Shown here one piece after another: positions 831-57,448 of a stretch of DNA of 64,000 nucleotides. Source of the DNA: Amia ocellicauda (lineage: Eukaryota; Chordata; Actinopteri; Amiiformes; Amiidae); the NCBI RefSeq assembly GCF_036373705.1, contig NC_089863.1, positions 5,118,857-5,182,856 of the forward strand, written 5' to 3'. The notes below the pieces were generated by a model that worked only from the letters and a program-made list of their open reading frames with translations, made no database searches and was not told the origin of the DNA. The position numbers and the translations under genes were made by a program. How positions within the stretch are numbered: the stretch's first letter is position 1; each line of letters starts with the position of its first letter.

Positions 831-1400
831 TAAAAATAAACAAATACAGACAAAATGATCAAATCATTAGGCCCGGAAGACAGAAAAACAACAACTCCTA
901 GTAAATGAGTAGTAAACATGTGGTAAATGAGTAGTAAATTAAGGCACCACAGTAGGATTTGATGTTCCGCCTGTGTGTGTCTCTTGCTACGCCCAGCAGC
1001 TCAAAGGTAATAAGGCAGTGATGGGAAATCAACTGGTTTTGTGCCGATATTATTACGCCATATTACAAGTCTCCCATTTTAATACGTTTATCATAGTTTC
1101 CCTATTGCAACAGCACCAATTTAAATTAAGTAAAAGCATTGTAGCGACTTGTGTTTATTTTGGCAAATCATTCGACAGCCAATTGAAGTCATTTCCCCCA
1201 GAACTGTGCTGTGTGTGTTCAGAATATTATATATTGTTTTATGTCAGCTCTCTCTCGCTCAGCTTAAACAAAATGAGCAATGCTAAGACTGTCTGAAACG
1301 AGGAACACAACAGATGGCCGCCTCTCACCTGTCCTGTCCTGTGTCTGTCTGTGGCAACTTGTCAGTCCTCTCAGATGAGTTCCACAACACATTTTACAGC
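831..1400. other. Duplicated non-coding segment
   Basis: No gene is seen. Bases 1,018-1,060 and 1,075-1,260 match 38,930-38,970 and 39,125-39,300, with about 150 bp present only in the second copy. This places the segment just upstream of the small secreted-protein gene in the repeated unit. Confidence 0.7.
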
Positions 1401-1799
1401 TCATTTCAATTGTGGATAATAAGAACAGAACAATGTAGTAATCTATTATGTATTCTGTATCAGTAATCGGTTACATAGTGCATTCATTCTGAATAAAGAA
1501 TTGTAGATTCCCTCCCAACCACAGTGTGCTTTTTCTAATAGAATATAATTGATTGATGTCATCATCAGGGCAAGTACATCGTGTCACACAAACAATGCAT
1601 TCTGTTCCCTGAGCAGCACATTCAGTAATATCAATTTGATTAGTAAAGTAGGCTACCATGTCTCTGACCAAAAGTGCCTCCACAGGCAGCCCTTTGAGGA
1701 GATAATACTGACATTCATGTTGGCACACATAAGGCTTGTGTATGAGACACCTGACAGGCAATTAGACTTCTTCACACAGAGAGCTGGTACAATCTGGCC

Positions 1800-2760
1800 G
1801 ACGTGGACAATTTGGGAACATTGCTAAATAGACTGGACTGAGTTTTTAATGGACACCACAGGAGCACGATGGGTCGAATGGCCTCCTCTCATTCGTAACC
1901 TCTCTCATGTTCTAATGATCTGAAAAGTCAAAAATATAGATATGGCACGGTCTCAAACTAGAGAGGACAAAATTACGGGGATTGAACCATTTCATTAAGC
2001 TTTCATATTATTTGCAAATCATGTGCAAGAGAACACTACCACCGCCAGAAATGTACTGATGATCATCAGCTGATTACAAAATATAATGTTACACCATCAG
2101 AGAGAACACTCTCCAGAAGTGACCATAAAAAAATGCAAAAACAGGGATTCAGGTGAAAGTTTGAAATCATTTCTCACACCAGTATTTCAATAAGAGCATC
2201 TTTAAAAGGATTATATTTTGTTGAGATCTGCACAGCAATATTCAATTTTCCTTTTACTATAAAAATCGCAGGATGGAAAGGACCATTCAAGTCTGAATCT
2301 GCAGCTGTAATGATACTCAGCTTCCACTCAATATTGTGATGTTCTTGTATGAGGTGGCAGTCTGGTGGATTGCACAGTCCCTGTCTTCACTCAATACAGG
2401 GGAAGCTCTACAGTTTTCTAGGCTGAATCAATATGATTGTAACAGGGAGCAGCACACGCAGGGCTCGGATGAGCCGACAGGCTTGTGTTTATTCAGCACC
2501 TTTGAAACGACTGAAAATAAAGCAAACTATAAAAAGAAATGCAAATAAACGGACACAGGAAAGATGTTCAGGCGCTCCAAGACTCAGGGGTCTGGGGTCT
2601 CCCTGAAAGACAGACCGGTCACAATGCTGAACAGACTCTAAAACACACTCTTGATCAATGACTATACTTCATTCATTACACTGCATGAATCGGTGACTTG
2701 CAGTTTTTGAAACGGAGTGTCTGAATCATCTGAAGGCCATCTTTGCGTGAATGGGAGTGT
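1800..2760. other. Stretch present in copies 1 and 3, absent from copy 2
   Basis: It begins with a CR1-like LINE 3' end (about 1,808-1,920, containing the GGCCTCCTCTCATTCGTAA signature) and then AT-rich sequence without a recognisable gene. Copy 2 joins directly across it near 12,130. An open frame at 2,336-2,548 has no supporting features and I do not call it a gene. Confidence 0.6.
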
Positions 2761-2887
2761 GTTGATGCAACATTATGTGACACTGGAGTAACGTCTTCCT
2801 CATCTCAATATCCATGATATTCTGTGGTTCGATGATACTTTGCTGCCTGCAGCATTGAGCGAGAGGACATGATCGCACTGTGATAAC

Positions 2888-2986
2888 CACGTGTCGGCTG
2901 CTTTGTTAACTTATGCAAAGTATGAAATGACACACCCTGTGACAGTGGGATGAAGGGAGTGAGCTGTGAATTCTCCTGCATAAATA
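2888..2986 (+). promoter_or_regulatory. Promoter of secreted-protein gene, copy 1
   Basis: A TATA-like ATAAATA lies at 2,980-2,986, 45 bp before the ATG at 3,031. Upstream are an E-box CACGTG at 2,888-2,893 and an octamer-like ATGCAAAG at 2,913-2,920. All three elements are kept in the other two copies. Function is inferred from position. Confidence 0.6.
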
Positions 2987-3030
2987 GAGCTGACTGCTCC
3001 TCACACCACAACACTGAACCCAGAGACACC

Positions 3031-4310
3031 ATGAAGGCTACGATCATACTGTTCGCCATCGCCGCGCTCTACAGCAGTAAGTGAAACCCACGACAATTCA
3101 TGGTCAGTCGTTGTGTATTGTGCTGCAATGGACTGAAACACCAGAGGAGTGTTTAACTAGGAACGCAGTGCAGATTAGTCCAAATAACAGCAAATGTGGA
3201 GATGACTTTCTAAATGATACAAGGTCTTAAAAATGCAGAGTTTTGAAAGCTGAGGCTGTGGTTTATGTGTCTTTTTTGAAACGCTATACAGATCATCTGT
3301 CCAGCATGAAGAAGCCGCCCATTGTGTCTGTGTCAGTCTAGTGCTGTATCGATCCCACACTCGTCTGCTTTACATGCTTTTCTGTTCAGTTTCAGCTGTA
3401 GGTGCACTGGCCTACCAGCAGATTACTCCCAAATTATTACGTCAGTAAGAACAGTAAGGTAAGGAGACTTAAAAGTTGACTATTTATGATTATTATGACT
3501 ATTGAATGTAGATCTTATACTCACACAAGTTCCATGACAGCTCTATCTGCACCAGATGACTTTAACAGGGGTTAATGCAGCTACATACAAAAAGCCATTC
3601 ACCACAGTTCTCAACTTCACAGCAAAAGGTGTATTTGTGCAAAATGTTGCAATAAAGACAAAAGAAAACTTTTCACCACAGAGACCCCATGAACTGCAAA
3701 GCAGGGTTTCAGTTCAGAGTGTGAGAAAAGTTATTGCGTAAAGTCAAGAATAATGTAATGTTACAAACATTCCTAATTTAGCAGATAGGAAAATATCTGC
3801 ATGATTGTTATTTGTATCAGATACAGGGTTTGCTTTTATAATAATAACCCATGCATTCTGTCTTGTATTTCAGATGTAATTATATAATAGTATATGTTGT
3901 ATACACACACAAGAGTCACATATTGGTACATGACAAACTGAAGGACAGTACATTTCTACCATATATGAAAACTGTGTGTTTGTTCCCTCTGGGTTTGTAG
4001 TGTAGGAGAGAAATGTGCAAGAGCAACAGATCAGTTAGCAGAGGATCTTATAAACATAGATATTGGTCATTTTTCTTTACATCATATCAAAAACAAAAGG
4101 GTCATTTTGAAGATACAAACATTAGCATTTCAGCATCAAGAAAAGATCTGCATGGAGCTCAAAGTGACAAGAGAGTCTTTTTACAGAGAGACAGAGTCAC
4201 TGGGGGTTCAGGGACCTTGCGTTTCATTATTATAACCTATTTGTCTGTCTGTGTTTTCCTAGCGGTATCCGGCCGAAGTAATCAAGACCATTCCAGCCGT
4301 GCTCTATTGA
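3031..4310 (+). CDS. Small secreted protein, copy 1 (four-exon model)
   Basis: Not recognised. The proposed exons are 3,031-3,076, 3,390-3,444, 4,001-4,163 and 4,263-4,310, totalling 103 codons plus stop. Exon 1 encodes a hydrophobic signal peptide (MKATIILFAIAALYS) and ends at a strong GTAAGT donor. Exon 2 completes the signal peptide (ending GALA) and starts the mature chain (YQQITPKLLR), with a GTAAGA donor. Exon 3 follows a pyrimidine-rich acceptor and encodes a Lys-rich, probably helical segment with two cysteines (in GEKC and EKIC). Exon 4 encodes RYPAEVIKTIPAVLY then TGA. Phases agree at every junction. The weak point is the exon 3 donor (AAA/GTGACA); without it, exon 3 reads on to a stop at 4,233. 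An intronic open frame at 3,556-3,741 does not fit the phases. The size suggests a small secreted peptide or secretoglobin-like protein, but no family signature is seen. Confidence 0.55.
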
Positions 4311-4364
4311 CCCAAGAAACTGTAACAGCCTGTATAGTAGGAAGAGTGATGATGCTGTTTGACT

Positions 4365-4370
4365 AATAAA
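4365..4370 (+). terminator. Polyadenylation signal AATAAA, copy 1
   Basis: A canonical AATAAA lies 55 bp after the proposed stop codon and is conserved at 13,732 and 33,856. It supports a real 3' end for the small gene. Confidence 0.7.
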
Positions 4371-4883
4371 ATCCCTGTCCACAAAGCTGTGTTTCTGCCT
4401 CTCATTACCAGTGCTGAGAGCATCTTGTGTCTGTAAGGAAGGGTGTTGACAATGCAGTGTAACTGCACCTGCAGACCTGGACTCACAACACTGTGCAGCC
4501 TGTTCAAACACAAGCAAGGACTTCTGAATTGCCCTCCAGCCTTGGAAAAGCTCGGGCCAATTTGACGTCATAGATTTGCTCTCACTGTTAGAGTGCTGAT
4601 TGTTGTAGTCTCGGACTTTAACGATTACAGTAGACACACTTTGTATTAGTTGCATATGACTCCCATAGTCTGTGGCATTGACTTGTTGCCTATAAACAAT
4701 TTGGTTGTTTCAATCGTAAAGGTTTAAAGTATGGAAACATTTTAATAATTTCTTATCAACATTCACTGTGACTTGATTTGGTACACGGTTTAAATAAAAC
4801 TTTCAAATAAATGAGTATAACTCCTTAACATTGAAGAGAAGTAGTAGGTTATCTACAAAGGGGGATATTACACGAGCTTCAAC
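4371..4883. other. Duplicated 3' flank without a gene
   Basis: This is present in all three copies. Minus-strand open frames at 4,230-4,655 recur in the copies only because the DNA is duplicated. No signal or motif supports coding. Confidence 0.6.
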
Positions 4884-5224
4884 GCTGTGGTCACTGAGAG
4901 ACAGGAGAGGTGGACACACAGAGGACCGGAGAGACAGGAGAGGTGGACACAGAGAGGACCGGCGCTGTGGTCACTGAGAGACAGGAGATGTGGACACAGA
5001 GAGGACTGGTGCTGTGGTCACTGAGAGACAGGAGAGGTGGACACACAGAGGACAGTGTGGTCACTGAGAGACAGGAGAGGTGGACACACAGAGGACCGGA
5101 GAGACAGGAGAGGTGGACACAGAGAGGACCGGTGCTGTGGTCACTGAGAGACAGGAGAGGTGGACACAGAGAGGACCAGCGCTGTGGTCACTGAGAGACA
5201 GGAGATGTGGACACAGAGAGGACC
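4884..5224 (+). repeat. Minisatellite, about 36-bp units, copy 1
   Basis: Tandem units are built on GAGAGACAGGAGAGGTGGAC followed by ACACAGAGGAC and variable GTGCTGTGGTCACT spacers. Open frames through it on both strands are repeat artefacts. Homologous arrays lie at 14,251-14,503 and 34,374-34,627. Confidence 0.95.
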
Positions 5225-12393: not shown

Positions 12394-13677
12394 ATGAAGG
12401 CTACGATCATACTGTTCGCCATCGCCGCGCTCTACAGCAGTAAGTGAAACCCACGACAATTCATGGTCAGTCGTTGTGTATTGTGCCGCAATGGACTGAA
12501 ACACCAGAGGAGTGTTTAACTAGGAACGCAGTGCAGATTAGTCCAAATAACAGCAAATGTGGAGATGACTTTCTTAATGATACAAGGTCTTAAAAATGCA
12601 GAGTTTTGAAAGCTGAGGCTGTGGTTTATGTGTCTATTTTGAAACGCTATACAGATCATCTGTCCAGCATGAAGAAGCCGCCCATTGTGTCTGTGTCAGT
12701 CTAGTGCTGTATCGATCCCACACTCGTCTGCTTTACATGCTTTTCTGTTCAGTTTCAGCTGTAGGTGCACTGGCCAACCAGCAGATTACTACCACCTCAG
12801 GTTCTGGTAGTGGAAGGTAAGGTAATGAGACTTAAAAGTTGACTAATTCAGATTATTATGACTATTGAATGTAGAGCTTATACTCACACAAGTTCCATGA
12901 CAGCTCTATCTGCACCAGATGACTTTAACAGGGGTTAATGCAGCTACATACAAAAAGCCATTCACCACAGTTCTCAACTTCACAGCAAAAGGTGTATTTG
13001 TGCAAAATGTTGCAATAAAGACAAAAGAAAACTTTTCACCACAGAGACCCCATGAACTGCAAAGCAGGGTTTCAGTTCAGAGTGTGAGAAAAGTTATTGC
13101 GTAAAGTCAAGAATAATGTAATGTTAGAAACATTCCTAATTTAGCAGATAGGAAAATATCTGCATGATTGTTATTTGTATCAGATACAGGGTTTGCTGTT
13201 ATAATAATAACCCATGCATTCTGTCTTGTATTTCAGATGTAATTATATAATAGTATATGTTGTATACACACACAATGGTGTCACATATTGGTACATGACA
13301 AACTGAAGGACAGTACATTTCTACCATATATGAAAACTGTGTGTTTGTTCCCTCTGGGTTTGTAGTGTAGGAGAGAAATGTGCAAGAGCAACAGATCAGT
13401 TAGCAGAGGATCTTATAAACATAGATATTGGTCATTTTTCTTTACATCATATCAGAAACAAAAGGGTCATTTTGAAGATACAAACATTAGCATTTCAGCA
13501 TCAAGAAAAGATCTGCATGGAGCTCAAAGTGACAAGAGAGTCTTTTTACAGAGAGACAGAGAGTCACTGGGGGTTCAGGGACCTTGCGTTTCATTATTAT
13601 AACCTATTTGTCTGTCTTTGATTTCCTAGCGGTATCCGGCCGAAGTAATCAAGACCATTCCAGCCGTGCTCTATTGA
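12394..13677 (+). CDS. Small secreted protein, copy 2 (four-exon model)
   Basis: Exons are 12,394-12,439, 12,753-12,816, 13,366-13,528 and 13,630-13,677, giving 106 codons plus stop. The signal peptide is identical to copy 1. Exon 2 differs after NQQIT: it encodes TTSGSGSG-type Ser/Gly/Thr-rich residues instead of PKLLR and ends at a different donor (AG/GTAAGG). It is 9 nt longer, so the phase is preserved. Exon 3 has one amino-acid change (Lys to Arg) and exon 4 is unchanged. A 2-bp insertion at about 13,560 lies beyond the proposed exon 3 donor, in the intron, which favours the splice model over read-through. The gene is followed by AATAAA at 13,732. Function unknown. Confidence 0.55.
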
Positions 13678-13731
13678 CCCAAGAAACTGTAACAGCCTGT
13701 ATAGTAGGAAGAGTGATGATGCTGTTTGACT

Positions 13732-13737
13732 AATAAA
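13732..13737 (+). terminator. Polyadenylation signal AATAAA, copy 2
   Basis: It lies at the same distance from the proposed stop codon as in copies 1 and 3. Confidence 0.7.
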
Positions 13738-15040: not shown

Positions 15041-18000
15041 TGCTGTGCAGTGCAGTAAACTACAGTATTGCGCAGTGCAGTGCAGTAGAGTACAGTATTG
15101 TGCAGTGAAGTGCAGTAGAGTACAGTATTGTGCAGTGTAGTAGATAGCAGTATTCTGCAGTGCAGTAGCATACAGTATTGTGCAGTGCAGTGCATTAGAG
15201 TACAGTAAAGTGCAGTTCATTAGAGTACAGTATTGTGCTGTGCAAATCAGTAGAGTACAGTATTGTGCAGTGAATTGTAGTAGAGTACAGTATTGCACAG
15301 TACAGTATTGTGCAGTAAAGTGTAGTAGAGTACAGTATTGCACAGTACAGAATTGTGCAGTAAAGTGTAGTAGAGTACAGTATTGTGCAGTAGAGTACAG
15401 TATTGTGCAGTGAAGTGTAGTAGAGAACAGTATTGTCCAGTGAAGTATAGTAGAGTATAGTATTGTGCAGTGAAGTGCAGTAGAGTACAGTATTCTGCAG
15501 TTGAGTACAGTATTGTGCAGTGAAGTATAGTAGAGTACAGTATTGTGCAGTGCATTAGAGTACAGTAAAGTGCAGTTCAGTAGAGTACAGCATTGTGCAG
15601 TGCAGTGGAGTGCAGTATTGTGCAGTGCAGTAGAGTACAGTATTGTGCAGTGCAGTAGCATACAGTATTGTGCAGTGCAGTGCAGTGGAGTACTGTATTG
15701 TGCAGTGCATTTGAGTACAGTAAAGTGCAGTTCAGTAGAGTACAGCATTGTGCAGTGCAGTAGAGTACAGTACTGTTAATGTAAAGTACAGTATTGTGCA
15801 GTGTAGTGGATAACAGTATTCTGCAGTGCAGTAGAGTACAGTATTTTGCAGTGTAGTAGATAGCAGTATTGTGCAGTGCAGTAGCATACAGTATTGTGCA
15901 GTGCAGTGCATTAGAGTACAGTAAAGTGCAGTGCATTAGAGTACAGTATTGTTAATGTAAAGTACAGTATTGTGCAGTGTAGTGGATAACAGTATTGTGC
16001 AGTGCAGTAGAGTACAGTATTGTGCAGTGTAGTAGATAGCAGTATTCTGCAGTGCAGTAGCATACAGTATTGTGCAGTGCAGTGCATTAGAGTACAGTAA
16101 AGTGCAGTTCATTAGAGTACAGTATTGTGCTGTGCAAATCAGTAGAGTACAGTATTGTGCAGTGAAGTATAGTAGAGTATAGTATTGTGGAGTGAAGTGC
16201 AGTAGAGTACAGTATTCTGCAGTTGAGTACAGTATTGTGCAGTGAAGTATAGTAGAGTACAGTATTGCACAGTAGAGTACAGTATTGTGCAGTGCATTAG
16301 AGTACAGTAAAGTGCAGTTCAGTAGAGTACAGCATTGTGCAATGCAGTGGAGTGCAGTATTGTGCAGTGCAGTAGAGTACAGTATTGTGCAGTGCAGTAG
16401 CATACAGTATTGTGCAGTGCAGTGCAGTGGAGTACTGTATTGTGCAGTGCATTAGAGTACAGTAAAGTGCAGTTCAGTAGAGTACAGCATTGTGCAGTGC
16501 AGTAGAGTACAGTACTGTTAATGTAAAGTACAGTATTGTGCAGTGTAGTGGATAACAGTATTCTGCAGTGCAGTAGAGTACAGTATTTTGCAGTGTAGTA
16601 GATAGCAGTATTGTGCAGTGCAGTAGCATACAGTATTGTGCAGTGCAGTGCATTAGAGTACAGTAAAGTGCAGTGCATTAGAGTACAGTATTGTTAATGT
16701 AAAGTACAGTATTGTGCAGTGTAGTGGATAACAGTATTGTGCAGTGCAGTAGAGTACAGTATTGTGCAGTGTAGTAGATAGCAGTATTCTGCAGTGCAGT
16801 AGCATACAGTATTGTGCAGTGCAGTGCATTAGAGTACAGTAAAGTTCAGTGCATTACAGTACAGTATAGTGCTGTGCAATGCAGTAGAGTACAGTATTGT
16901 GCAGTGAAGTGTAGTAGAGTACAGTATTGCACAGTACATTATTGTGCAGTAAAGTGTAGTAAAGTACAGTATTGTGCAATAGAGTACAGTATTGTGCTGT
17001 GCAATGCAGTAGAGTACAGTATTGTGCAGTGGAGTGTAGTAGAGTACAATATTGCACAGTACAGTATTGTGCAGTAAAGTGTAGTAGAGTACAGTATTGG
17101 ACAGCACAGTATTGTGCAGTAAAGTGTAGTAAAGTACAGTATTGTGCAGTAGAGTACAGTATTGTCCAGTGAAGTATAGTAGAGTATAGTATTGTGCAGT
17201 GAAGTGCAGTAGAGTACAGTATTGTGCAGTAGAGTACAGTAATGTGCAGTGAAGTATAGTAGAGTACAGTATTGCACAGTAGAGTACAGTATTGTGCAGT
17301 GCATTAGAGTACAGTAAAGTGCAGTGCAGTAGAGTACAGCATTGTGCAGTACAGTGGAGTGCAGTATTGTGCAGTGCAGTAGAGTACAGTATTGTGCAGT
17401 GCAGTAGCATACAGTATTGTGCAGTGCAGTGCAGTAGAGTACAGTGAAGTGCAGTGCATTAGAGTACAGTACTGTTAATGTAAAGTTCAGTATTGTGCAG
17501 TGTAGTGGATAACAGTATTCTGCAGTGAAGTAGAGTACAGTATTGTGCAGTGTAGTAGATAGCAGTATTGTGCAGTGCAGTAGCATACAGTATTGTGCAG
17601 TGCAGTGCATTAGAGTACAGGAAAGTGCAGTGCATTAGAGTACAGTATTGTTAATGTAAAGTACAGTATTGTGCAGTGTAGTGGATAACAGTATTCTGCA
17701 GTGCAGTACAGTACAGTATTTTGCAGTGTAGTAGATAGCAGTATTCTGCAGTGCAGTAGCATACAGTATTGTGCAGTGCATTTGCGTACAGTAAACTGCA
17801 GTTCAGTAGAGTACAGTATTGTACAGTGCAGTGGAGTACAGTATTGTGCAGTGCAGTGCAGTAGAGAACAGTATTGTGCAGTAGAGTACAGTATTGTGCA
17901 GTGCATTAGAGTACAGTAAAGTGCAGTTCAGTAGAGTACAGCATTGTACAGTGCAGTGGAGTACAGTATTGTGCAGTGCAGTGCAGTAGAGAACAGTATT

Positions 18001-19648
18001 GTGCAGTTCAGTAGAGTAAAGTATTGCACAGTGCAGAAGAGTACAGTATTATCCTGTGCAGTGCAGAAAAGTATAGTATTGTTAATGTAAAGTGTAGTGG
18101 ATAACAGTATTCTGCAGTGCAGCAGAGTACAGTATTGTGCAGTGCAGTGCAGTAGAGTACAGTATTGTGCAGTGCAGTAGCATACAGTATTGTGCAGTGC
18201 AGTGCAGTAGAGTACAGTATTGTGCAGTGCAGTAGCATACAGTATTGTGCAGTGCAGTGCATTAGAGTACAGTATTCTGCAGTGCAGTGCATTAGAGTAC
18301 AGTATTCTGCAGTGCATTAGAGTACAGTATTGTGCAGTGCAGTGCAGTAGAGTACAGTACTGTGCAGTGCAGTGCATTACAGTACAGTGAAGTGCAGTGC
18401 ATTAGAGTACAGTATTGTTAATGTAAAGTACAGTATTGTGCAGTGTAGTGGATAACAGTATTCTGCAGTGCAGTAGAGTACAGTATTTTGCAGTGTAGTA
18501 GATAGCAGTATTCTGCAGTGCAGTAGCATACAGTATTGTGCAGTGCAGTGCATTGGAGTACAGTAAAGTGCAGTTCAGTAGAGTACAGTATTGTGCTGTG
18601 CAATGCAGTAGAGTACAGTATTGTGCAGTGAAATGTAGTAGAGTACAGTATTGTGCAGTAGAGTACAGTATTGTGCAGTACAGTATTGTGCAGTAATGTG
18701 TAGTAAAGTACAGTATTGTGCAGTAGAGTACAGTATTGTCCAGTGAAGTATAGTAGAGTATAGTATTGTGCAGTGAAGTGCAGAAGAGTACAGTATTGTG
18801 CAGTAGACTACAGTATTGTGCAGTGAAGTATAGTAGAGTACAGTATTGTGCAGTGAAGTGCAGTAGAGTACAGTAGTATGCAGTAGAGTACAGTATTGTG
18901 CAGTGAAATGTAGTAGAGTACAGTATTGCACAGTACAGTATTGTGCAGTGAAGTGTAGTAAAGTACAGTATTGCACAGTAGAGTACAGTATTGTGCAGTG
19001 AAGTATAGTAGAGTACAGTATTGCACAGTAGAGTACAGTATTGTGCAGTGAAGTGTAGTAGAGTACAGTATTGTGCAGTAGAGTACAGTATTGTGCAGTG
19101 AAATGTAGTAGAGTACAGTATTGCACAGTACAGTATTGTGCAGTGAAGTGTAGTAAAGTACAGTATTGCACAGTAGAGTACAGTATTGTGCAGTGAAGTG
19201 CAGTAGAGTACAGTATTGTGCAGTAGAGTACAGTATTGTGCAGTGAAGTGTAGTAGAGTACAGTATTGTGCAGTAGAGTACAGTATTGTGCATTGAAGTG
19301 TAGTAGAGTACAGTATGGCACAGTGGAGTACAGTATTGTGCAGTGAAGTGCAGTAGAGTACAGTATTGTGCAGTGAAGTGCAGTAGAGTACAGTATTGTG
19401 CAGTGAAGTGTAGTAGAGTACAGTATTGTGCAGTAGAGTACAGTATTGTGCATTGAAGTGTAGTAGAGTACAGTATGGCACAGTGGAGTACAGTATTGTG
19501 CAGTGAAGTGCAGTTGAGTACAGTATTGTGCAGTGAAGTGCAGTAGAGTACAGTATTGTGCAGTGAAGTGCAGTAGAGTACAGTATTGTGCAGTAGAGTA
19601 CAGTATTGTGCAGTGAAGTGTAGTAGAGTACAGTATTGTGCAGTGCTG
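15041..19648 (+). repeat. Decamer satellite array 2 (4.6 kb)
   Basis: Nearly 4.6 kb is made of 10-bp units of the form CAGTNNNGTN (CAGTATTGTG, CAGTGAAGTG, CAGTAGAGTA), often grouped as 20- or 30-bp blocks. A 742-bp stretch is duplicated inside it (15,577-15,936 against 16,319-16,678). A marker GTTAATGTAAAG variant recurs at 15,775, 15,951, 16,517 and 16,693. Long minus-strand open frames in all three phases (up to 359 codons) arise because the 10-bp unit lacks stops on that strand. They are not genes. Confidence 0.97.
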
Positions 19649-20605
19649 TACTGGACTGTGTCTCTGCAGGACCAGGATTCAGCTTCTAAACAGGCCCTTC
19701 TGTAACCTCCCTCAAACCCTGTGGAGTCAATATAACACACAGACACACAGCTGGCATAAAAACAGAGTTTATTTGTGATTAGTACATGGTATAGCTGTTA
19801 TTAAATGCTTTTTAAGAAATTTATACCAGATAAATAATATTAATAAACACAATAACATCAAGAATCATCATCATCATCTTCATCTTCACCACACAACAGC
19901 TGGTTTAAGTGTTGAAGGCACAATTCATGATCAAAGATTCATTTTTAAGACAGTGGATTCATGCAGCCAGAAGCCCCAGATCAAGCGCTGATGTCAGTGA
20001 CTGAGAGGCTCCTGGAATCAGCACATCTACAGTGTGATGAGGAGGGGGTTTGTGTTCAGCTTGTTCTTGTATAGTCAGTGTAATTGTACATGTTTAGCAG
20101 AGTTTGGCAGTGATTCCCTACAGAGGTTTCTCAGTCCTGCACTGTGCTTTACTGCGCTAGAGCAGAGCAATACCATGAAATGAGAAATATTCCTTAGGCA
20201 TGTTTACTGCAGCGCACTAGTCTGTGGAGCAGTAATGGAGCGGCGCAGTACAGCACAGTGATGGTGTGTTGAGCCCATAGGAACCACAGAGTCAAAGACT
20301 GACCATGGTAATCGTTTATACACAACACAATAATAATAATCATAATAATCATAATAATCATAATAATAATTATCATAATAATAATAATCATAATATTGAT
20401 GTCCTTCTACAGAGTCTCATTATGGAGATGAGATGGATTGTCTTGGGATCATTTTAGCAGGTAGGGGCTCGAGAAAAGTATTTAACATGGATTTGTTTAT
20501 TGACAATAATATATCAAAGAGATCTGAACTTGGCTGACTTCTTGAAGTCGTGTTGCTCTGTCTCTATTTCACTCTGCCTCTCTCTCTCTCCCTCTTCTTT
20601 CCCAG
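19649..20605. repeat. Duplicated flank after decamer array (copy A)
   Basis: It is shared with 61,291-62,145 and, from CACACAACAGCTGG onward, with 37,776-38,454. It contains (AAT/CAT)n simple repeats at 20,325-20,395. No coding motif is seen. Confidence 0.85.
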
Positions 20606-20783: not shown

Positions 20784-22130
20784 GAGTTGGGCCTGTTGTT
20801 CCGGAAAAAGCCCCTCACAACTGGGGCGCCAGACAGCTGTGACATGGGGCTGCAGTACATCAGGGCTCACTGGGGCGTTAGTGCTGGGGCTTGGTTGAAC
20901 TGCTGATGCAGGATCGGTAGGTGGTATGGCAGTGTCAGAGGAGCCGAGACGCCTAGGGGGATGCTCTATGTCTGCTGGGGATCGCGGGCTTGGTGGCATG
21001 CTGTCAATGGTGGAAGGAATGAGGCTCCTCGTCACTTGATTGTGCCACCTGGTACAATACTTGACGTCCCCTGGTGGTGACATGGCCAGGTCAGCAACCC
21101 CCGGAATCCTCAGGGTTCCCGTCAGCAGGTCTAGTTGACTCCAGTGTCTCTGAGAAAATCCAATCCCAGAATACACGGATCCTGTACGGTGGCCACCCAG
21201 ACAGGATGGCAAACAGTCTGCCCGTCTAGAGAGATCTCCAACATAGCACGGCCATGCATGGGGGCTAACTCTCCTGTTACTGTCCTCATGTGGACCGTGG
21301 TGGCCTCCAGGGAGATCCCTCTTGACAGAACATCAGGTCTCACCAGTGTGACAGTGGAACCTGTATCCACCAAGGCGATGCAAGGAACTCCCTCCACCTG
21401 TACAGGAACGTGGCAGAAGTCCCCCACAGTTGTTCGGACCACCACGACACTGCGGCCTCGTTGTTGGAACTGGGGATGAAAGGGGGCGGCAAATGGGGAC
21501 AGGCTAGGGGGTCGGCAGACTGGTCCAGTTGGCACGCCGACAGGTGGCATTGACGGCAGGCAGGCGGCAACAGTACGGGGCACTGGTGATTGCATGTTGT
21601 GGCTAACAGGCATCAATGCTGTTGCTGTAGTCGTGGCGGCTTGCTGGGGGTTTGGATGCTCAGCTCCAGCTGGCGACAACTGCAGGGTCGGCGGCAGCGT
21701 CTCTACGCGGGCCCTCCCTCGCTTCCTGATCGTGAAGGTAGGTTGGTGGGCCTCGCTTTGCAGTTGGGCGATGGGCAGTCACGGCGGATGTGTCCGGGAA
21801 TCCCACATCCCCAGCAAAGGCGTAACTGGGAACTTGGGCCTCCCGGGCCCCTGACCTGGAGGGCTCTCAGCACGGCCACAACCTCAGGGGCCATTGGTGG
21901 CACTTCAGTAACTTCTGTCTGTCTTGCGGTTGGCTGGCGGGCTGTGGCAGCACTCTCCTCGATCACTTCTTCCCACTCTTGAGCCATGCGCAGTGCGGTG
22001 GCCAGAGAAGTAGGTCGCTGTAGATGTAAGTGCTTTCTCAATTCGCCCGCGCCCAGTGCTTCAATAAATTGCAAACGGGCCTTGCTCTGTCCGGCTGGAT
22101 GTGGCATAAGCCCTCTGGCTCTCCCTCTCC
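20784..22130 (-). mobile_element. Ty3/gypsy-like retrotransposon fragment 1 (gag to protease linker)
   Basis: The minus strand carries the C-terminal part of a gag protein with a CCHC zinc knuckle (CWGCGIPGHIRRDC) at about 21,703-22,107. This is followed by an aspartic protease with the ALVDTGSTVTLV active-site motif and the ILGLDFL flap-end motif at 21,131-21,679, then a Pro/Ser-rich linker before the reverse transcriptase (20,784-21,212). Frames are joined by shifts. Reverse transcriptase, integrase and recognisable LTRs are absent. Sequence from 22,131 to about 22,400 may be further gag or leader. Confidence 0.85.
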
Positions 22131-30886: not shown

Positions 30887-32466
30887 CTCATTTCAATTGT
30901 GGATAATAAGAACAGAACAATGTAGTAATCTATTATGTATTCTGTATCAGTAATCGGTTACATAGTGCATTCATTCTGAATAAAGAATTGTAGATTCCCT
31001 CCCAACCACAGTGTGCTTTTTCTAATAGAATATAATTGATTGATGTCATCATCAGGGCAAGTACATCGTGTCACACAAACAATGCATTCTGTTCCCTGAG
31101 CAGCACATTCAGTAATATCAATTTGATTAGTAAAGTAGGCTACCATGTCTCTGACCAAAAGTGCCTCCACAGGCAGCCCTTTGAGGAGATAATACTGACA
31201 TTCATGTTGGCACACATGAGGCTTGTGTATGAGACACCTGACAGGCAATTAGACTTCTTCACACAGAGAGCTGGTACAATCTGGCCGACGTGGACAATTT
31301 GGGAACATTGCTAAATAGACTGGACTGAGTTTTTAATGGACACCACAGGAGCACGATGGGTCGAATGGCCTCCTCTCATTCGTAACCTCTCTCATGTTCT
31401 AATGATCTGAAAAGTCAAAAATATAGATATGGCACGGTCTCAAACTAGAGAGGACAAAATTACGGGGATTGAACCATTTCATTAAGCTTTCATATTATTT
31501 GCAAATCATGTGCAAGAGAACACTACCACCGCCAGAAATGTACTGATGATCATCAGCTGATTACAAAATATAATGTTACACCATCAGAGAGAACACTCTC
31601 CAGAAGTGACCATAAAAAAATGCAAAAACAGGGATTCAGGTGAAAGTTTGAAATCATTTCTCACACCAGTATTTCAATAAGAGCATCTTTAAAAGGATTA
31701 TATTTTGTTGAGATCTGCACAGCAATATTCAATTTTCCTTTTACTATAAAAATCGCAGGATGGAAAGGACCATTCAAGTCTGAATCTGCAGCTGTAATGA
31801 TACTCAGCTTCCACTCAATATTGTGATGTTCTTGTATGAGGTGGCAGTCTGGTGGATTGCACAGTCCCTGTCTTCACTCAATACAGGGGAAGCTCTACAG
31901 TTTTCTAGGCTGAATCAATATGATTGTAACAGGGAGCAGCACACGCAGGGCTCGGATGAGCCGACAGGCTTGTGTTTATTCAGCACCTTTGAAACGACTG
32001 AAAATAAAGCAAACTATAAAAAGAAATGCAAATAAACGGACACAGGAAAGATGTTCAGGCGCTCCAAGACTCAGGGGTCTGGGGTCTCCCTGAAAGACAG
32101 ACCGGTCACAATGCTGAACAGACTCTAAAACACACTCTTGATCAATGACTATACTTCATTCATTACACTGCATGAATCGGTGACTTGCAGTTTTTGAAAC
32201 GGAGTGTCTGAATCATCTGAAGGCCATCTTTGCGTGAATGGGAGTGTGTTGATGCAACATTATGTGACACTGGAGTAACGTCTTCCTCATCTCAATATCC
32301 ATGATATTCTGTGGTTCGATGATACTTTGCTGCCTGCAGCATTGAGCGAGAGGACATGATTGCACTGTGATAACCACGTGTCGGCTGCTTTGTTAACTTA
32401 TGCAAAGTATGAAATGACACACCCTGTGACAGTGGGATGAAGGGAGTGAGCTGTGAATTCTCCTGC

Positions 32467-32473
32467 ATAAATA
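32467..32473 (+). promoter_or_regulatory. TATA-like element, copy 3
   Basis: ATAAATA lies 45 bp before the ATG at 32,518, with the same upstream E-box and octamer-like site as copy 1. Confidence 0.6.
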
Positions 32474-32517
32474 GAGCTGACTGCTCCTCACACCACAACA
32501 CTGAACCCAGAGACACC

Positions 32518-33801
32518 ATGAAGGCTACGATCATACTGTTCGCCATCGCCGCGCTCTACAGCAGTAAGTGAAACCCACGACAATTCATGGTCAGTCGTTG
32601 TGTATTGTGCTGCAATGGACTGAAACACCAGAGGAGTGTTTAACTAGGAACGCAGTGCAGATTAGTCCAAATAACAGCAAATGTGGAGATGACTTTCTAA
32701 ATGATACAAGGTCTTAAAAATGCAGAGTTTTGAAAGCTGAGGCTGTGGTTTATGTGTCTTTTTTGAAACGCTATACAGATCATCTGTCCAGCATGAAGAA
32801 GCCGCCCATTGTGTCTGTGTCAGTCTAGTGCTGTATCGATCCCACACTCGTCTGCTTTACATGCTTTTCTGTTCAGTTTCAGCTGTAGGTGCACTGGCCT
32901 ACCAGCAGATTACTCCCAAATTATTACGTCAGTAAGAACAGTAAGGTAAGGAGACTTAAAAGTTGACTATTTATGATTATTATGACTATTGAATGTAGAT
33001 CTTATACTCACACAAGTTCCATGACAGCTCTATCTGCACCAGATGACTTTAACAGGGGTTAATGCAGCTACATACAAAAAGCCATTCACCACAGTTCTCA
33101 ACTTCACAGCAAAAGGTGTATTTGTGCAAAATGTTGCAATAAAGACAAAAGAAAACTTTTCACCACAGAGACCCCATGAACTGCAAAGCAGGGTTTCAGT
33201 TCAGAGTGTGAGAAAAGTTATTGCGTAAAGTCAAGAATAATGTAATGTTACAAACATTCCTAATTTAGCAGATAGGAAAATATCTGCATGATTGTTATTT
33301 GTATCAGATACAGGGTTTGCTTTTATAATAATAACCCATGCATTCTGTCTTGTATTTCAGATGTAATTATATAATAGTATATGTTGTATACACACACAAG
33401 GGTCACATTTTGGTACAAACATGACAAACTGAAGGACAGTACATTTCTACCATATATGAAAACTGTGTGTTTGTTCCCTCTGGGTTTGTAGTGTAGGAGA
33501 GAAATGTGCAAGAGCAACAGATCAGTTAGCAGAGGATCTAATAAACATAGATATTGGTCATTTTTCTTTACATCATATCAAAAACAAAAGGGTCATTTTG
33601 AAGATACAAACATTAGCATTTCAGCATCAAGAAAAGATCTGCATGGAGCTCAAAGTGACAAGAGAGTCTTTTTACAGAGAGACAGAGTCACTGGGGGTTC
33701 AGGGACCTTGCGTTTCATTATTATAACCTATTTGTCTGTCTTTGTTTTCCTAGCGGTATCCGGCCGAAGTAATCAAGACCATTCCAGCCGTGCTCTATTG
33801 A
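32518..33801 (+). CDS. Small secreted protein, copy 3 (four-exon model)
   Basis: Exons are 32,518-32,563, 32,877-32,931, 33,492-33,654 and 33,754-33,801, giving 103 codons plus stop. Coding exons match copy 1 except for a synonymous change in exon 3 (CTT to CTA, Leu). All splice sites are kept. AATAAA follows at 33,856. The encoded protein is therefore predicted to be the same as that of copy 1. Function unknown; the caveat about the exon 3 donor applies here too. Confidence 0.55.
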
Positions 33802-33855
33802 CCCAAGAAACTGTAACAGCCTGTATAGTAGGAAGAGTGATGGTGCTGTTTGACT

Positions 33856-33861
33856 AATAAA
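33856..33861 (+). terminator. Polyadenylation signal AATAAA, copy 3
   Basis: Same context as in copies 1 and 2. Confidence 0.7.
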
Positions 33862-34373
33862 ATCCCTGTCCACAAAGCTGTGTTTCTGCCTCTCATTACC
33901 AGTGCTGAGAGCATCTTGTGTCTGTAAGGAAGGGTGTTGACAATGCAGTGTAACTGCACCTGCAGACCTGGACTCACAACACTGTGCAGCCTGTTCAAAC
34001 ACAAGCAAGGACTTCTGAATTGCCCTCCAGCCTTGGAAAAGCTCGGGCCAATTTGACGTCATAGATTTGCTCTCACTGTTAGAGTGCTGATTGTTGTAGT
34101 CTCGGACTTTAACGATTACAGTAGACACACTTTGTATTAGTTGCATATGACTCCCATAGTCTGTGGCATTGACTTGTTGCCTATAAACAATTTGGTTGTT
34201 TCAGTCGTAAAGGTTTAAAGTATGGAAACATTTTAATAATTTCTTATCAACATTCACTGTGACTTGATTTGGTACACGGTTTAAATAAAACTTTCAAATT
34301 AATGAGTATAACTCCTTAACATTGAAGAGAAGTAGTAGGTTATCTACAAAGGGGGATATTACACGAGCTTCAA

Positions 34374-34627
34374 CGCTGTGGTCACTGAGAGACAGGAGAG
34401 GTGGACACACAGAGGACAGTGTGATCAGTGAGAGACAGGAGAGGTGGACACAGAGAGGACAGTGTGGTCACTGAGAGACAGGAGAGGTGGACACAGAGAG
34501 GACCGGAGAGACAGGAGATGTGGACACAGAGAGGACCGGTGCTGTGGTCACTGAGAGACAGGAGAGGTGGACACACAGAGGACAGTGTGGTCACTGAGAG
34601 ACAGGAGATGTGGACACAGAGAGGACC
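34374..34627 (+). repeat. Minisatellite, about 36-bp units, copy 3
   Basis: It has the same GAGAGACAGGAGAGGTGGAC unit as copies 1 and 2. The arrangement differs. Confidence 0.95.
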
Positions 34628-35164
34628 AGGACCACACAGCAATTAAAGTCCAGTATTTGTTACAAGTAAATAAATGAACAGTATTTTAATTGTATTGATA
34701 TCAAAAGTAAACATTGATAAAGTAGGACAGATCTCATACTGTCCAATACAAACACATTAACAATTATACATGCACAGTATCTGTACTTTGACTATTAAAA
34801 CACCTGTGTTTACAGACATGTCTTTCCAGAAGAACTGAGTGACTGATACATGAAACTACTGTATCTTCAAAAAGTTAACTGCTACATATTCCTAGAACAA
34901 GACCCGCTTACGACTTTTGTCTTTACCTGAACTGAGAAGACAATTATTCTATTTTTCCAGAAGCACAAGCATGTCAATGAGCCCGTGGGTCAGACGTCTC
35001 TAGGACTGCAGATCAATCCAGACGTGCACAATTCACAAGAGCACCTGGATGCTGAAATGCAACACAACCTTCTTGCAAAAACAGCGAGGATGGGGTGTTT
35101 GGCTTGAGTTTGCACCAGTAAAGTGGAGCCTCTATTTCCTGACACGTCTCATAGACTGTGTACT
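34628..35164. other. Duplicated spacer before decamer array 3
   Basis: It is homologous to 14,504-15,040. No gene seen. Confidence 0.6.
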
Positions 35165-37725
35165 GCTGTGCAGTGCAGTAAACTACAGTATTGTGCAGTG
35201 CAATGCAGTAGAGTACAGTATTGTGCAGTGTAGTAGATAGCAGTATTGTGCAGTGCAGTAGCATACAGTATTGTGCAGTGCAGTGCATTAGAGTACAGTA
35301 AAGTGCAGTTCATGAGAGTACAGTATTGTGCTGTGCAATGCAGTAGAGTACAGTATTGTGCAGTGAATTGTAGTAGAGTACAGTATTGCGCAGTACAGTA
35401 TTGTGCAGTAAAGTGTAGTAGAGTACAGTATTGCACAGTACAGTATTGTGCAGTAAAGTGTAGTAAAGTACAGTATTGTGCAGTAGAGTACAGTATTGTC
35501 CAGTGAAGTATAGTAGAGTATAGTATTGTGCAGTGAAGTGCAGTAGAGTACAGTATTGTGCAGTAGAGTACAGTATTGTGCAGTGAAGTATAGTAGAGTA
35601 CAGTATTGCACAGTAGAGTACAGTATTGTGCAGTGCATTAGAGTACAGTAAAGTGCAGTTCAGTAGAGTACAGCATTGTGCAGTGCAGTAGAGTACAGTA
35701 TTGTGCAGTGCAGTGCATTAGAGTACAGTGAAGTGCAGTGCAGTAGAGTACAGTACTGTTAATGTAAAGTACAGTATTGTGCAGTGTAGTGGATGACAGT
35801 ATTCTGCAGTGCAGTAGAGTACAGTATTTTGCAGTGTAGTAGATAGCAGTATTGTGCAGTGCAGTAGCATACAGTATTGTGCAGTGCAGTGCATTAGAGT
35901 ACAGTAAAGTGCAGTGCATTAGAGTACAGTATTGTTAATGTAAAGTACAGTATTGTGCAGTGTAGTGCATTAGAGTACAGTAAAGTGCAGTGCATTAGAG
36001 TACAGTAAAGTTCAGTGCATTAGAGTACAGTATTGTGCAGTGATGTGTAGTAGAGTACAGTATTGCACAGTAGAGTACAGTATTGTGCAATAAAGTGTAG
36101 TAGAGTACAGTATTGCACAGTACAGTATTGTGCAGTAAAGTGTAGTAAAGTACAGTATTGTGCAGTAGAGTACAGTATTGTGCTGTGCAATGCAGTAGAG
36201 TACAGTATTGTGCAGTAAAGTGTAGTAGAGTACAGTATTGCACAGTACAGTATTGTGCAGTAAAGTGTAGTAAAGTACAGTATTGTGCAGTAGAGTACAG
36301 TATTGTCCAGTGAAGTATAGTAGAGTATAGTATTGTGCAGTGAAGTGCAGTAGAGTACAGTATTCTGCAGTTGAGTACAGTATTGTGCAGTGAAGTATAG
36401 TAGAGTACAGTATTGCACAGTAGAGTACAGTATTGTGCAGTGCATTAGAGTACAGTAAAGTGCAGTTCAGTAGAGTACAGCATTGTGCAGTGCAGTGGAG
36501 TGCAGTATTGTGCAGTGCAGTAGAGTACAGTATTGTGCAGTGCAGTAGCATACAGTATTGTGCAGTGCAGTGCAGTAGCATACAGTATTGTGCAGTGCAG
36601 TGCAGTGGAGTACAGTAAAGTGCAGTTCAGTAGAGTACAGCATTGTGCAGTGCAGTAGAGTACAGTATTGTGCAGTGCAGTGCATTAGAGTACAGTGAAG
36701 TGCAGTGCATTAGAGTACAGTACTGTTAATGTAAAGTACAGTATTGTGCAGTGTAGTGGATAACAGTATTCTGCAGTGCAGTAGAGTACAGTATTTTGCA
36801 GTGTAGTAGATAGCAGTATTGTGCAGTGCAGTAGCATACAGTATTGTGCAGTGCAGTGCATTAGAGTACAGTAAAGTGCAGTGCATTAGAGTACAGTATT
36901 GTTAATGTAAAGTACAGTATTGTGCAGTGTAGTAGATAGCAGTATTCTGCAGTGCAGTAGCATACAGTATTGTGCAGTGCATTTGCGTACAGTAAAGTGC
37001 AGTTCAGTAGAGTACAGTATTGTACAGTGCAGTGGAGTACAGTAAAGTGCAGTTCAGTAGAGTACAGCATTGTACAGTGCAGTGGAGTACAGTATTGTGC
37101 AGTGCAGTGCAGTAGAGAACAGTATTGTGCAGTTCAGTAGAGTAAAGTATTGCACAGTGCAGAAGAGTACAGTATTATCCTGTGCAGTGCAGAAAAGTAT
37201 AGTATTGTTAATGTAAAGTGTAGTGGATAACAGTATTCTGCAGTGCAGCAGAGTACAGTATTGTGCAGTGCAGTGCAGTAGAGTACAGTATTGTGCAGTG
37301 CAGTAGCATACAGTATTGTGCAGTGCAGTGCAGTAGAGTACAGTATTGTGCAGTGCAGTGCAGTGGAGTACAGTATTGTGCAGTGCAGTGCCTTAGAGTA
37401 CAGTATTCTGCAGTGCATTAGAGTACAGTATTGTGCAGTGCAGTGCAGTAGAGTACAGTATTGTGCAGTGCAGTGCATTACAGTACAGTGAAGTGCAGTG
37501 CATTAGAGTACAGTATTGTTAATGTAAAGTACAGTATTGTGCAGTGTAGTGGATAACAGTATTCTGCAGTGCAGTAGAGTACAGTATTTTGCAGTGTAGT
37601 AGATAGCAGTATTCTGCAGTGCAGTAGCATACAGTATTGTGCAGTGCATTTGCGTACAGTAAAGTGCAGTTCAGTAGAGTACAGTATTGTGCTGTGCAAT
37701 GCAGTAGAGTACAGTATTGTGCAGT
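35165..37725 (+). repeat. Decamer satellite array 3 (2.6 kb)
   Basis: It has the same 10-bp family as array 2, with the GTTAATGTAAAG marker variant recurring (for example at 35,758, 35,934, 36,725, 36,899, 37,206 and 37,517). Its right end breaks into TTTATTAATATTATTTATC rather than the flank seen after arrays 2 and 4. Open frames are repeat artefacts. Confidence 0.97.
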
Positions 37726-39576: not shown

Positions 39577-40935
39577 GTGCCATTTCCTCCAGCACCTTCT
39601 CAGCTGCTTTGAATTTAGCCAGCGGCAGCCTACGGGGGTGTTGTTTAATTGGTCTTGCTGTTTCGGTGTCTATGTAATGCTGGACCAGGTGGGTCTTCCC
39701 TGTGTTTTTCTCACTAGTAGCAAAGGTGTGTTGAAAGTCAAACAGCAAGTCCCAGAGTTGGGCCTGTTGTTCCGGAAAAAGCCCCTCACAACTGGGGCGC
39801 CAGACAGCTGTGACATGGGGCTGCAGTACATCAGGGCTCACTGGGGCGTTAGTGCTGGGGCTTGGTTGAACTGCTGATGCAGGATCGGTAGGTGGTATGG
39901 CAGTGTCAGAGGAGCCGAGACGCCTAGGGGGATGCTCTATGTCTGCTGGGGATCGCGGGCTTGGTGGCATGCTGTCAATGGTGGAAGGAATGAGGCTCCT
40001 CGTCACTTGATTGTGCCACCTGGTACAATACTTGACGTCCCCTGGTGGTGACATGGCCAGGTCAGCAACCCCCGGAATCCTCAGGGTTCCCGTCAGCAGG
40101 TCTAGTTGACTCCAGTGTCTCTGAGAAAATCCAATCCCAGAATACACGGATCCTGTACGGTGGCCACCCAGACAGGATGGCAAACAGTCTGCCCGTCTAG
40201 AGAGATCTCCAACATAGCACGGCCATGCATGGGGGCTAACTCTCCTGTTACTGTCCTCATGTGGACCGTGGTGGCCTCCAGGGAGATCCCTCTTGGCAGA
40301 ACATCAGGTCTCACCAGTGTGACAGTGGAACCTGTATCCACCAAGGCGATGCAAGGAACTCCCTCCACCTGTACAGGAACGTGGCAGAAGTCCCCCACAG
40401 TTGTTCGGACCACCACGACACTGCGGCCTCGTTGTTGGAACTGGGGATGAAAGGGGGCGGCAAATGGGGACAGGCTAGGGGGTCGGCAGACTGGTCCAGT
40501 TGGCACGCCGACAGGTGGCATTGACGGCAGGCAGGCGGCAACAGTACGGGGCACTGGTGATTGCATGTTGTGGCTAACAGGCATCAATGCTGTTGCTGTA
40601 GTCGTGGCGGCTTGCTGGGGGTTTGGATGCTCAGCTCCAGCTGGCGACAACTGCAGGGTCGGCGGCAGCGTCTCTACGCGGGCCCTCCCTCGCTTCCTGA
40701 TCGTGAAGGTAGGTTGGTGGGCCTCGCTTTGCAGTTGGGCGATGGGCAGTCACGGCGGATGTGTCCGGGAATCCCACATCCCCAGCAAAGGCGTAACTGG
40801 GAACTTGGGCCTCCCGGGCCCCTGACCTGGAGGGCTCTCAGCACGGCCACAACCTCAGGGGCCATTGGTGGCACTTCAGTAACTTCTGTCTGTCTTGCGG
40901 TTGGCTGGCGGGCTGTGGCAGCACTCTCCTCCATC
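39577..40935 (-). mobile_element. Ty3/gypsy-like retrotransposon fragment 2
   Basis: It is near-identical to 20,784-21,960 for the gag zinc knuckle, protease (ALVDTGSTVTLV) and linker, but extends about 170 bp further into the start of the reverse transcriptase region (LVQHYIDTETARPIKQHPRR, then AAEKVLEEM). It ends in gag at 40,935, earlier than fragment 1. No LTRs are seen. Confidence 0.85.
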
Positions 40936-54029: not shown

Positions 54030-54995
54030 ACAATCGCTTCCTGAGCCGGAGGAGCCGGAGAACAATGTTTCTGCTGGGTGAGTGGCTCTCCCAGTCTGTC
54101 GAGCACAAAATAGTGTTTTAATTGTTGAGATGGAGGTGGTGTTGCCTGTTAAGAGTCCAGTTTTCTGTTGCCTTTCTGTATTTTATGTTTTGTCTTTGTT
54201 AAAATCAATGAATGCATCCCTAGAAATACATGTTTTCTGATTCTGTGGGATCTCACGCACTCCAGAGCCCCTTCCTGCTTTAATAGTGCCGTGTGTCTGT
54301 GTTTTTCTCTCAGCCAAGGCCGTGAGTTCGCTTTGTCGTGGGGCGGCAGCAAGGACAATGCGAAGGAAGACCTTGACCAGGCCTGTCGGATGCTATACAT
54401 GTTTAATGTCACTTATACCAAAACCGTAAACAAGGCCCAGGACATTGTGAACCAGCACTTCAACGCAGACATCCCCCTCCTGTCCTTCGATCGGGACCAG
54501 AGCCTGCGGGAGCACGTGTCGCAGGTCAGAGAGACCCTGGGCACCATCTACCAGAAGGCTGAGCTGATGCACAATGACCTCCTGTCCCAGCTGGAGCCAT
54601 CTATGTCTGCAAAGATTGAAGACTCCAATGTCCAGATGGAGGTAGAGATGGAGGTCGTCAACGAGCTGCAGAAGACGTACACTGGTCTGCTGGGAGAGAG
54701 CACCCCACTCGTCGCCGTGTTGCTGGTGAAGAAAGGCATGGTAGAGAGCGCCCTCCCGCACCCCGCCCGCCTCCAGGACTTGACCGTCCTCGACCTGTGC
54801 GGGAACGACCTGCTGCAGAGCACTGAGGGGGTGTGTAAAGCTCTGACCGGGGGCGAGAGTGAGAGCGACTATGACCGCGCCGCCCAGCTGGTCTGGGAGA
54901 CGGCTGAAGTGTTGTGGCCGCACTTCCACGGTTACGTTGAACTAATTGACGAAGTGCAGGCCTGCATCAGGGGGGAGGAGAGCCTGGATGAGTGA
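54030..54995 (+). CDS. Last two exons of an unrecognised host gene
   Basis: Not recognised. Exon 54,030-54,077 is bounded by a TTTCTCTGCAG acceptor and a GTGAGT donor and encodes QSLPEPEEPENNVSAG. The phase matches the terminal exon 54,314-54,995, which has a TTTTTCTCTCAG acceptor. That exon encodes about 227 residues, starting QGREFALSWGGSKDN and ending EEESLDE-like with TGA at 54,993. The protein is acidic, rich in Leu and Glu and probably all-helical, with coiled-coil potential around SLREHVSQVRETLGTIYQKA. No signal peptide, membrane segment or catalytic motif is seen. Codon use is GC-rich and unlike the transposons around it, and the frame is intact over 682 bp. The 5' exons are not found; they may lie upstream beyond the inserted LINE. 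It could be a cytoskeletal, kinetochore or adaptor-type protein, but that is a guess. Confidence 0.7.
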
Positions 54996-55818: not shown

Positions 55819-56037
55819 GTGTGTGTTTTCTTGTGCTCTCGTACCTCTTCTCTGTCCTTGAGTATTGTACAATTAAAAACAGTGGCCAGCTGCACTAGAA
55901 GTAGAAAAAATGTATTTTAATAACTGCAAAACCGTGTCTTCTAGATTCTGACTTTAACAGCGTACATATGTAGCCACTCGATGCACAACTGTGTGATTAA
56001 TGTGGAATATATTGATCAGCTCAATGTCTTGAATATA

Positions 56038-57155: not shown

Positions 57156-57448
57156 TATATTCAAGACATTGAGCTGATCAATATATTCCACATTAATCAC
57201 ACAGTTGTGCATCGAGTGGCTACATATGTACGCTGTTAAAGTCAGAATCTAGAAGACACGGTTTTGCAGTTATTAAAATACATTTTTTCTACTTCTAGTG
57301 CAGCTGGCCACTGTTTTTAATTGTACAATACTCAAGGACAGAGAAGAGGTACGAGAGCACAAGAAAACACACACAGTCATAATGTTATGGCTGATCGTGT
57401 ATATATATATTACATCATGTACATATTGTTACTACTACGTATGTTATT

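Follow-up and report, generated by a model that had tools for sequence, protein, structure and literature searches.

Gene parts shared by three copies in the window

The same short series of gene-like signals occurs three times along the 64,000-nucleotide stretch of Amia ocellicauda DNA that we analyzed (hereafter the window), and the question that it raises is what product, if any, these copies encode. An earlier note, made from the letters of the window, had described a gene of four exons for a secreted, helical protein of 103-106 residues with two cysteines. In copy 1, we find a ATAAATAG box, a start that resembles a signal peptide, a phase-1 exon 1, good splice sites for intron 1, and an AATAAA at 4365. 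A TATA-like box, a signal-peptide exon with its ATG (at 3031, 12394, and 32518 in copies 1, 2, and 3, respectively), intron 1, the start of exon 2, and an AATAAA are common to all three copies, confirming this part of the earlier description, and the phases of the four proposed exons likewise agree at their junctions in copies 1, 2, and 3. Splice sites were scored with generic matrices, and signal peptides were called by a simple rule or by eye. The features are as follows.

2913..2919, + strand: ATGCAAA promoter element, copy 1; upstream of 24 of 24 exon-1 models checked and kept across the family
2979..2987, + strand: TATA-like box CATAAATAG, copy 1; a TATA-like box is present in 18 of 24 exon-1 models checked
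3031..3076, + strand: coding part of exon 1, copy 1; bulk of the predicted signal peptide (MKATIILFAIAALYS), with donor AGCA/GTAAGT (the slash marks the junction)
3390..3458, + strand: exon 2, copy 1; end of the signal peptide, mature peptide, and stop TAA at 3446-3448, with the strongest donor at 3459
3413..3445, + strand: predicted mature peptide YQQITPKLLRQ, copy 1; boundary placed from the signal-peptidase motif ALA/Y (cut at the slash) and the onset of divergence among paralogues
4001..4163, + strand: exon 3 of the four-exon model, copy 1; judged non-coding, its frame being broken in 12 of the 16 loci that have the sequence and its donor weak
4263..4370, + strand: last exon to the AATAAA at 4365-4370, copy 1; 3' UTR in the favored model, with acceptor and polyA signal kept in paralogues
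12394..12439, + strand: coding part of exon 1, copy 2
12753..12821, + strand: exon 2, copy 2; in-frame stop TAA at 12818-12820, with tandem donors at 12817 (the stronger) and 12822
12776..12817, + strand: predicted mature peptide NQQITTTSGSGSGR, copy 2
13630..13737, + strand: last exon to the AATAAA, copy 2
32518..32563, + strand: coding part of exon 1, copy 3
32877..32945, + strand: exon 2, copy 3; stop TAA at 32933-32935, with a predicted mature peptide identical to that of copy 1
33754..33861, + strand: last exon to the AATAAA, copy 3

A search of both strands of the window for such chains of signals, using thresholds that were fixed after the gene had been seen, returned only the three known starts, and it returned none in six simulated 64-kb sequences. 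When the TATA and polyA requirements were dropped and every threshold was lowered by 1 bit, three further starts appeared in the window and two in one of four simulations. Copies 1 and 3 differ from one another by 9 mismatches and 4 gap positions over 3505 columns, while copy 2 is 96.8% similar to copy 1 across 2154 columns, a figure that falls to 81% in a stretch further upstream. Since the copies sit in larger duplications, their agreement is not independent proof of any gene model. The nearly identical stretches at 1400-4900 and 30887-34391 (the same 9 mismatches in 3505 columns) either arose by duplication very recently or are an artefact of the assembly. Large arrays of a AGTGCAGTAT-like minisatellite, at 15044-19650, 35164-37725, and 59181-61290, are also part of duplicated blocks.

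A dispersed family in the assembly

We searched the species' own 988-Mb assembly with the promoter and exon 1 of the window and obtained 31 matches, on contigs C20 (the contig of the window), C21, C7, C25, and C23. A search with the promoter and exon 1 of a distant copy gave 32 matches, and a search with the 3' exon gave 29. A pattern for the start of exon 2 occurs at 27 places in the assembly, and its reversed control occurs at none. For locus modelling, 33 stretches were taken, and exon 2 was modelled in 29 loci, namely the 27 pattern places, among which are the three copies of the window, together with L021 and L035. These 29 exon-2 loci are spread over C20, C21, C7, and C25. The proposal of an unrecognised multi-copy gene with a small secreted product is supported, with more copies than the window shows.

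Exon 1 is intact in 26 of the 29 exon-2 loci; it lacks its donor in L028 and is missing from L037a and L037b. Conversely, L015, L017, L018, and L027 keep exon 1 (two bases shorter in L027) and have lost exon 2, so that the damaged loci are L015, L017, L018, L027, L028, and L037. The six exon-1 models that lack a TATA-like box are all C21 copies. The last exon and its polyA signal lie within the fetched stretch in 20 of 24 loci, the others being L009, L025, L026, and L036. Among the individual loci, L018 (at about 885) is a family copy that breaks off at or near exon 2, the exon-1 side of L037 has been lost to unrelated sequence, and L041 holds most of one mature-peptide cassette with the usual signal part absent.

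On the basis of the comparison of the 29 loci, we are fairly confident that the window copies are members of a family of three-exon genes, about thirty strong, that has been duplicated in tandem and dispersed. A literature search returned no paper on the family among the matches listed, which is weak evidence of its novelty.

The conserved reading frame ends in exon 2

An in-frame stop codon lies beside a splice donor in all 29 exon-2 loci. The strongest donor starts 4-13 nt past the first base of this stop in 27 of them, and in the remaining two, copy 2 and L028, it starts 1 nt ahead of it. The best exon-2 donor of copy 1 scores 6.8 and follows the in-frame TAA at 3446, whereas the donor used in the four-exon model scores -0.6. 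Across 11 representatives, the mature segment extends 30-54 nt past its first residue, and every one of these lengths is in frame to the stop. The conserved frame therefore ends at the end of exon 2, and the predicted precursor is one of 34-42 residues, consisting of a signal peptide and a mature peptide of 11-19 residues, in place of the 103-106-residue, two-cysteine helical product that had been proposed. The 29 loci yield 14 distinct predicted mature peptides, examples of which are YQQITPKLLRQ, NQQITTTSGSGSGR, YYKITPKPLGGLSIGK, YQPVSFMGNQKGK, YDAMGPEQNPIYRFYKQV, CDEMQPKNNPIFRFYSGV, YDAMGPKENPIFGFYLNGK, and YDAMQPEDNPMYSFYARG. Each gene probably makes a secreted peptide of 11-19 residues and not a protein of 103 residues, and the sequence of this peptide varies strongly from one subgroup of copies to another, with much less change in the remainder of the gene.

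Under this model, exon 1 and the start of exon 2 would encode a conserved signal peptide ending in ...SAVGALA, the remainder of exon 2 would encode the hypervariable mature peptide of 11-19 residues followed by the stop beside the donor, and the last exon would be a 3' UTR that carries the polyA signal. Signal peptidase would free the peptide, with no propeptide to be removed, and some of the peptides may be amidated at the C-terminus, given that 6 of the 14 distinct peptides have GK or GR at that end and 2 have G. Because the last exon is a 3' UTR in this model, the stop would be near the final junction, and a stop codon in such a position is expected to escape nonsense-mediated decay.

Copy 2 and L028, in which the strongest donor precedes the stop, may have a longer product, and longer peptides might be made in part of the family if an upstream donor joined exon 2 straight to the last exon ahead of the stop; on a manual reading of its sequence, copy 2 would then end in ...SGSGSGIRPK. 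Two donors stand in tandem at the stop, 5 nt from each other, in L009/L010, in copy 2, in the copies of the C21 cluster, and in L023/L024, with the upstream member being the stronger in copy 2 and L028. However, the donor past the stop is the stronger in 27 of 29 loci, and in the other C7 and C25 types no donor ahead of the stop reaches -1, so we regard longer peptides as improbable.

The sequence that the four-exon model uses as exon 3 was found in 16 of the 36 loci examined. Its frame is open in four of them, namely the fragment L039 and all three window copies; in the other twelve it is broken, by stops in ten C21 copies and by interrupting sequence in L009 and L010. Frame 0 of the last exon (4263-4311, SSSEAAVIKTIPAVLY-stop) runs uninterrupted to a shared stop in 15 of 15 distinct paralogues compared (L010-L037). 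The changes among them, 7 synonymous and 9 non-synonymous, show no significant synonymous bias (p = 0.13; p = 0.27 for frame 2), and the last exon could be coding in some isoform. The four-exon gene, with its two-cysteine helical secreted product made at least from the window copies, draws on the agreement of phases in copies 1-3 (such chains being rare), on the open exon 3 of these copies and L039, on the open frame of the last exon, on the strongest exon-2 donor of copy 2 (12817), which leaves the frame open, and on a structure model in which exon 3 folds as two helices (pLDDT 69), but we consider it very unlikely, since exon 3 is broken in 12 of 16 loci and was not found in the other 20 of 36, no exon-3 donor scores above 0, copies 1 and 3 would need the donor of -0.6 in place of that of 6.8, and the product matches no Pfam family, no known fold, and no PDB sequence at an E value better than 1.3. 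The proposal that exons 3 and 4 are coding thus gives way, in our reading, to the short precursor.

Given that exon 3 is judged to be non-coding, its predicted structure is of little use; modelled by itself, it matched no PDB or viral fold. A profile search with the long product of copy 1 retrieved no Pfam family at E values up to 10, in keeping with the earlier note, which could not place the product in a known family, and relatives of the long product that were sought in viral or prokaryotic contigs were not confirmed. Saposin-like proteins, secretoglobins, and chemokines were considered for the long product and rejected, as 69, 65, and 39 of 100 shuffled sequences, respectively, scored at least as well in hhalign against approximate reference sequences.

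Domain searches and neighboring features of the window

A search of Pfam with the short precursors, covering 10 of the 14 distinct mature peptides, gave a best score of 13.9 bits against a cut-off of 25. The locus had been linked to immunoglobulin-like exon remnants nearby, but neither ORF scans nor a V-set search produced an Ig exon. The scan was confined to the 196 window ORFs of at least 55 residues outside masked repeats; for 192 of these the families listed include none of the Ig type, and in one ORF set 25 of 29 families were listed. Weak matches to IL3Ra_N (E 0.02-0.07) were seen among the scanned window ORFs. The motif [DE].[AGS].Y.C occurs twice in the window, both times in a duplicated stretch that contains stops. 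Of 1793 V-set candidates in the genome, 150 matches were scored, and none of these lies in the window. Most of the 150 cluster at about 7.0-12.2 Mb of C19, a contig other than that of the window.

The ORF at 54153-54992 (+ strand) matches DUF4533 above the cut-off (29.9 versus 28.6 bits), and we take it to be SMCO3-like, which, like the transposon types seen, suits a fish genome. Because of this neighbor, MGP was considered as a relative of the three-copy gene and set aside, the similarity being confined to the signal peptide. Between 37894 and 63916, weak matches link one ORF to CX9C (E 0.0018) and two ORFs to DUF986 (E 0.0032). ORFs 21134-21778 and 40105-40749 (- strand) are nearly identical, and the first, which was scanned, matches retroviral-type aspartyl protease families. 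A 536-nt inverted repeat has arms at 55816-56351 and 56842-57377 that are 99% complementary and 490 nt apart, in a region that is presumably Tc1-like. Rfam and tRNA scans of the window returned nothing.

Divergence of the mature segment

The mature segment has a mean divergence of 50% among 11 representatives, as compared with 6% in the signal part of exon 2, 13% in exon 1, and 17-30% in three intron segments; it is 13% in the last exon, for 9 of the 11. We then compared mature segments with introns in four pairs that share no locus, picked from 14 pairs for their similar flanks after the distances had been seen. In the pooled pairs, 36 of 168 positions differ in the mature segment versus 40 of 1381 in introns (p = 8e-17). 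The excess is significant in three of the pairs taken alone, L014-L031 (9/36 versus 19/348), L019-L022 (15/51 versus 8/338), and c1-L010 (10/30 versus 7/350), and it is not significant in L025-L026 (2/51 versus 6/345, p = 0.28). The order is reversed in the pairs L011-L014 and L011-L031, whose mature segments differ by 14% and whose promoter or intron-1 end differs by 35-38%.

Of the 43 substitutions that separate copies 1 and 2, 20 are concentrated in 64 of the 2102 aligned columns. Fast point substitution was considered for this difference and gave way to block replacement, given a 26-nt core with 18 mismatches, which is close to the level expected of unrelated sequence. At the intron rate, the mature segments of the four pairs would be expected to show 0.9 synonymous differences, but they show 7 (p = 5e-5). 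In most of 12 pairs, the mature part has roughly equal pN and pS. Therefore, selection on point mutations alone is insufficient to account for the divergence, and classic positive selection is not shown by the pN/pS of most pairs.

The kinship of mature segments also departs from that of their flanks. In its 5' block, L022 is nearest to L019 (3/346, versus 28/345 for L026), whereas its mature segment is nearer to that of L026 (10/51) than to that of L019 (15/51). In the block just upstream of its mature segment, L019 is equally near to L025 (5/124) and L022 (6/130), and an exchange boundary may lie in intron 1. The raised number of synonymous differences and this disagreement, which rests on small numbers, suggest that cassettes are exchanged, or flanks homogenised, independently. 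Diversification would act on the mature segments as cassettes, and the flanks would stay alike through gene conversion or recent duplication. In its strict form, in which exchange or in-place hypermutation affects a single coding cassette of 33-57 nt, its synonymous sites too, with promoter, signal part, introns, and 3' exon kept much more alike, this mechanism is one that we put forward as a tentative and rather unlikely candidate.

A decaying or non-coding repeat family, in which differences in exon 2 are neutral or stem from local recombination, would fit with the damage seen in several loci and with synonymous sites about as divergent as non-synonymous ones. However, the signal part of exon 2 is conserved beyond the introns, in-frame lengths and the position of the stop are kept in 29 loci, and in three of four pairs the mature segment exceeds introns in divergence, which makes neutral decay an explanation with little probability. 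The family of genes for short peptides remains our preferred reading, and its divergent mature segments beside similar introns make it a good case in which to ask how such diversity comes about, be it through point mutations under selection, exchange of cassettes, or mutation acting locally.

Predicted role of the peptides

The net charge of the 14 distinct predicted peptides ranges from -2 to +3. They carry either one cysteine or none, with none in 12 of the 14. Given that charges vary, that GK, GR, or G ends are common, and that no Pfam family matches the long product or the ten precursors scanned above a cut-off, a uniform membrane-active role is unlikely, and a ligand is favored. A secreted ligand would thus be a more likely role than an antimicrobial one, and we propose, with less than even confidence, that the peptides are pheromone-like ligands for a fast-evolving receptor.

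A host-defence family of antimicrobial peptides, diversified by pathogens as are fish hepcidins or frog skin peptides, would share the conserved signal peptide and hypervariable mature part seen here, and the C20 and C21 peptides are indeed cationic (+1 to +3). However, the C7 and C25 peptides have net charges of +1 to -2, so that net positive charge does not hold throughout the family, 12 of the 14 distinct peptides are without cysteine, and there is no acidic propeptide; we consider this role unlikely.

Comparison with known systems

With its conserved signal part and a mature part that exceeds introns in divergence, the family has the features of hypervariable secreted peptides, which are a kind and not a homology group. 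Mouse exocrine gland-secreting peptides are chemosignals encoded by clustered genes for small secreted peptides, and the likeness to the present family lies in that clustering, by description only. Conotoxins carry cysteine frameworks, unlike the present family, which is mostly without cysteine. As cited in PMC10561478, mature-peptide exons in conotoxin superfamilies are about three times as divergent as flanking non-coding DNA. The likeness, again by description only, is in secreted peptides encoded by few short exons, of which the mature exon outpaces non-coding DNA, whereas conotoxins have a propeptide (PMC10561478) and the present family, from a vertebrate and with peptides of 11-19 residues, does not.

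Plethodontid modulating factor (PMF), a hypervariable salamander pheromone, is described in PMC4029566 and PMC5373537 as having more than 30 isoforms, and it resembles the present family in being a set of multi-copy, hypervariable secreted products in a vertebrate (PMC4029566). The three-finger structure of PMF includes 8 conserved cysteines (PMC4029566), whereas none of the 14 distinct mature peptides has more than one. Fish hepcidin, according to PMC3325200, is a small secreted precursor whose mature peptide is reported to be under positive selection, but its eight cysteines and its cleaved prepropeptide of 99 residues (PMC3325200) have no counterpart here. By analogy, PMF is the nearest vertebrate analogue in behavior, and neither PMF nor conotoxins are shown to be relatives by the tests made.

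The present family is very small and simple, with no propeptide, mostly no cysteines, and a mature peptide contained in one short exon, so that direct synthesis and testing of the peptides are feasible. Hypervariable families of secreted peptides usually sit at recognition fronts, with mates, prey, or pathogens on the other side. If the cassette mechanism is true, the family would be an inherited generator of diversity for secreted recognition peptides of a vertebrate, that is, a repertoire of peptide ligands.
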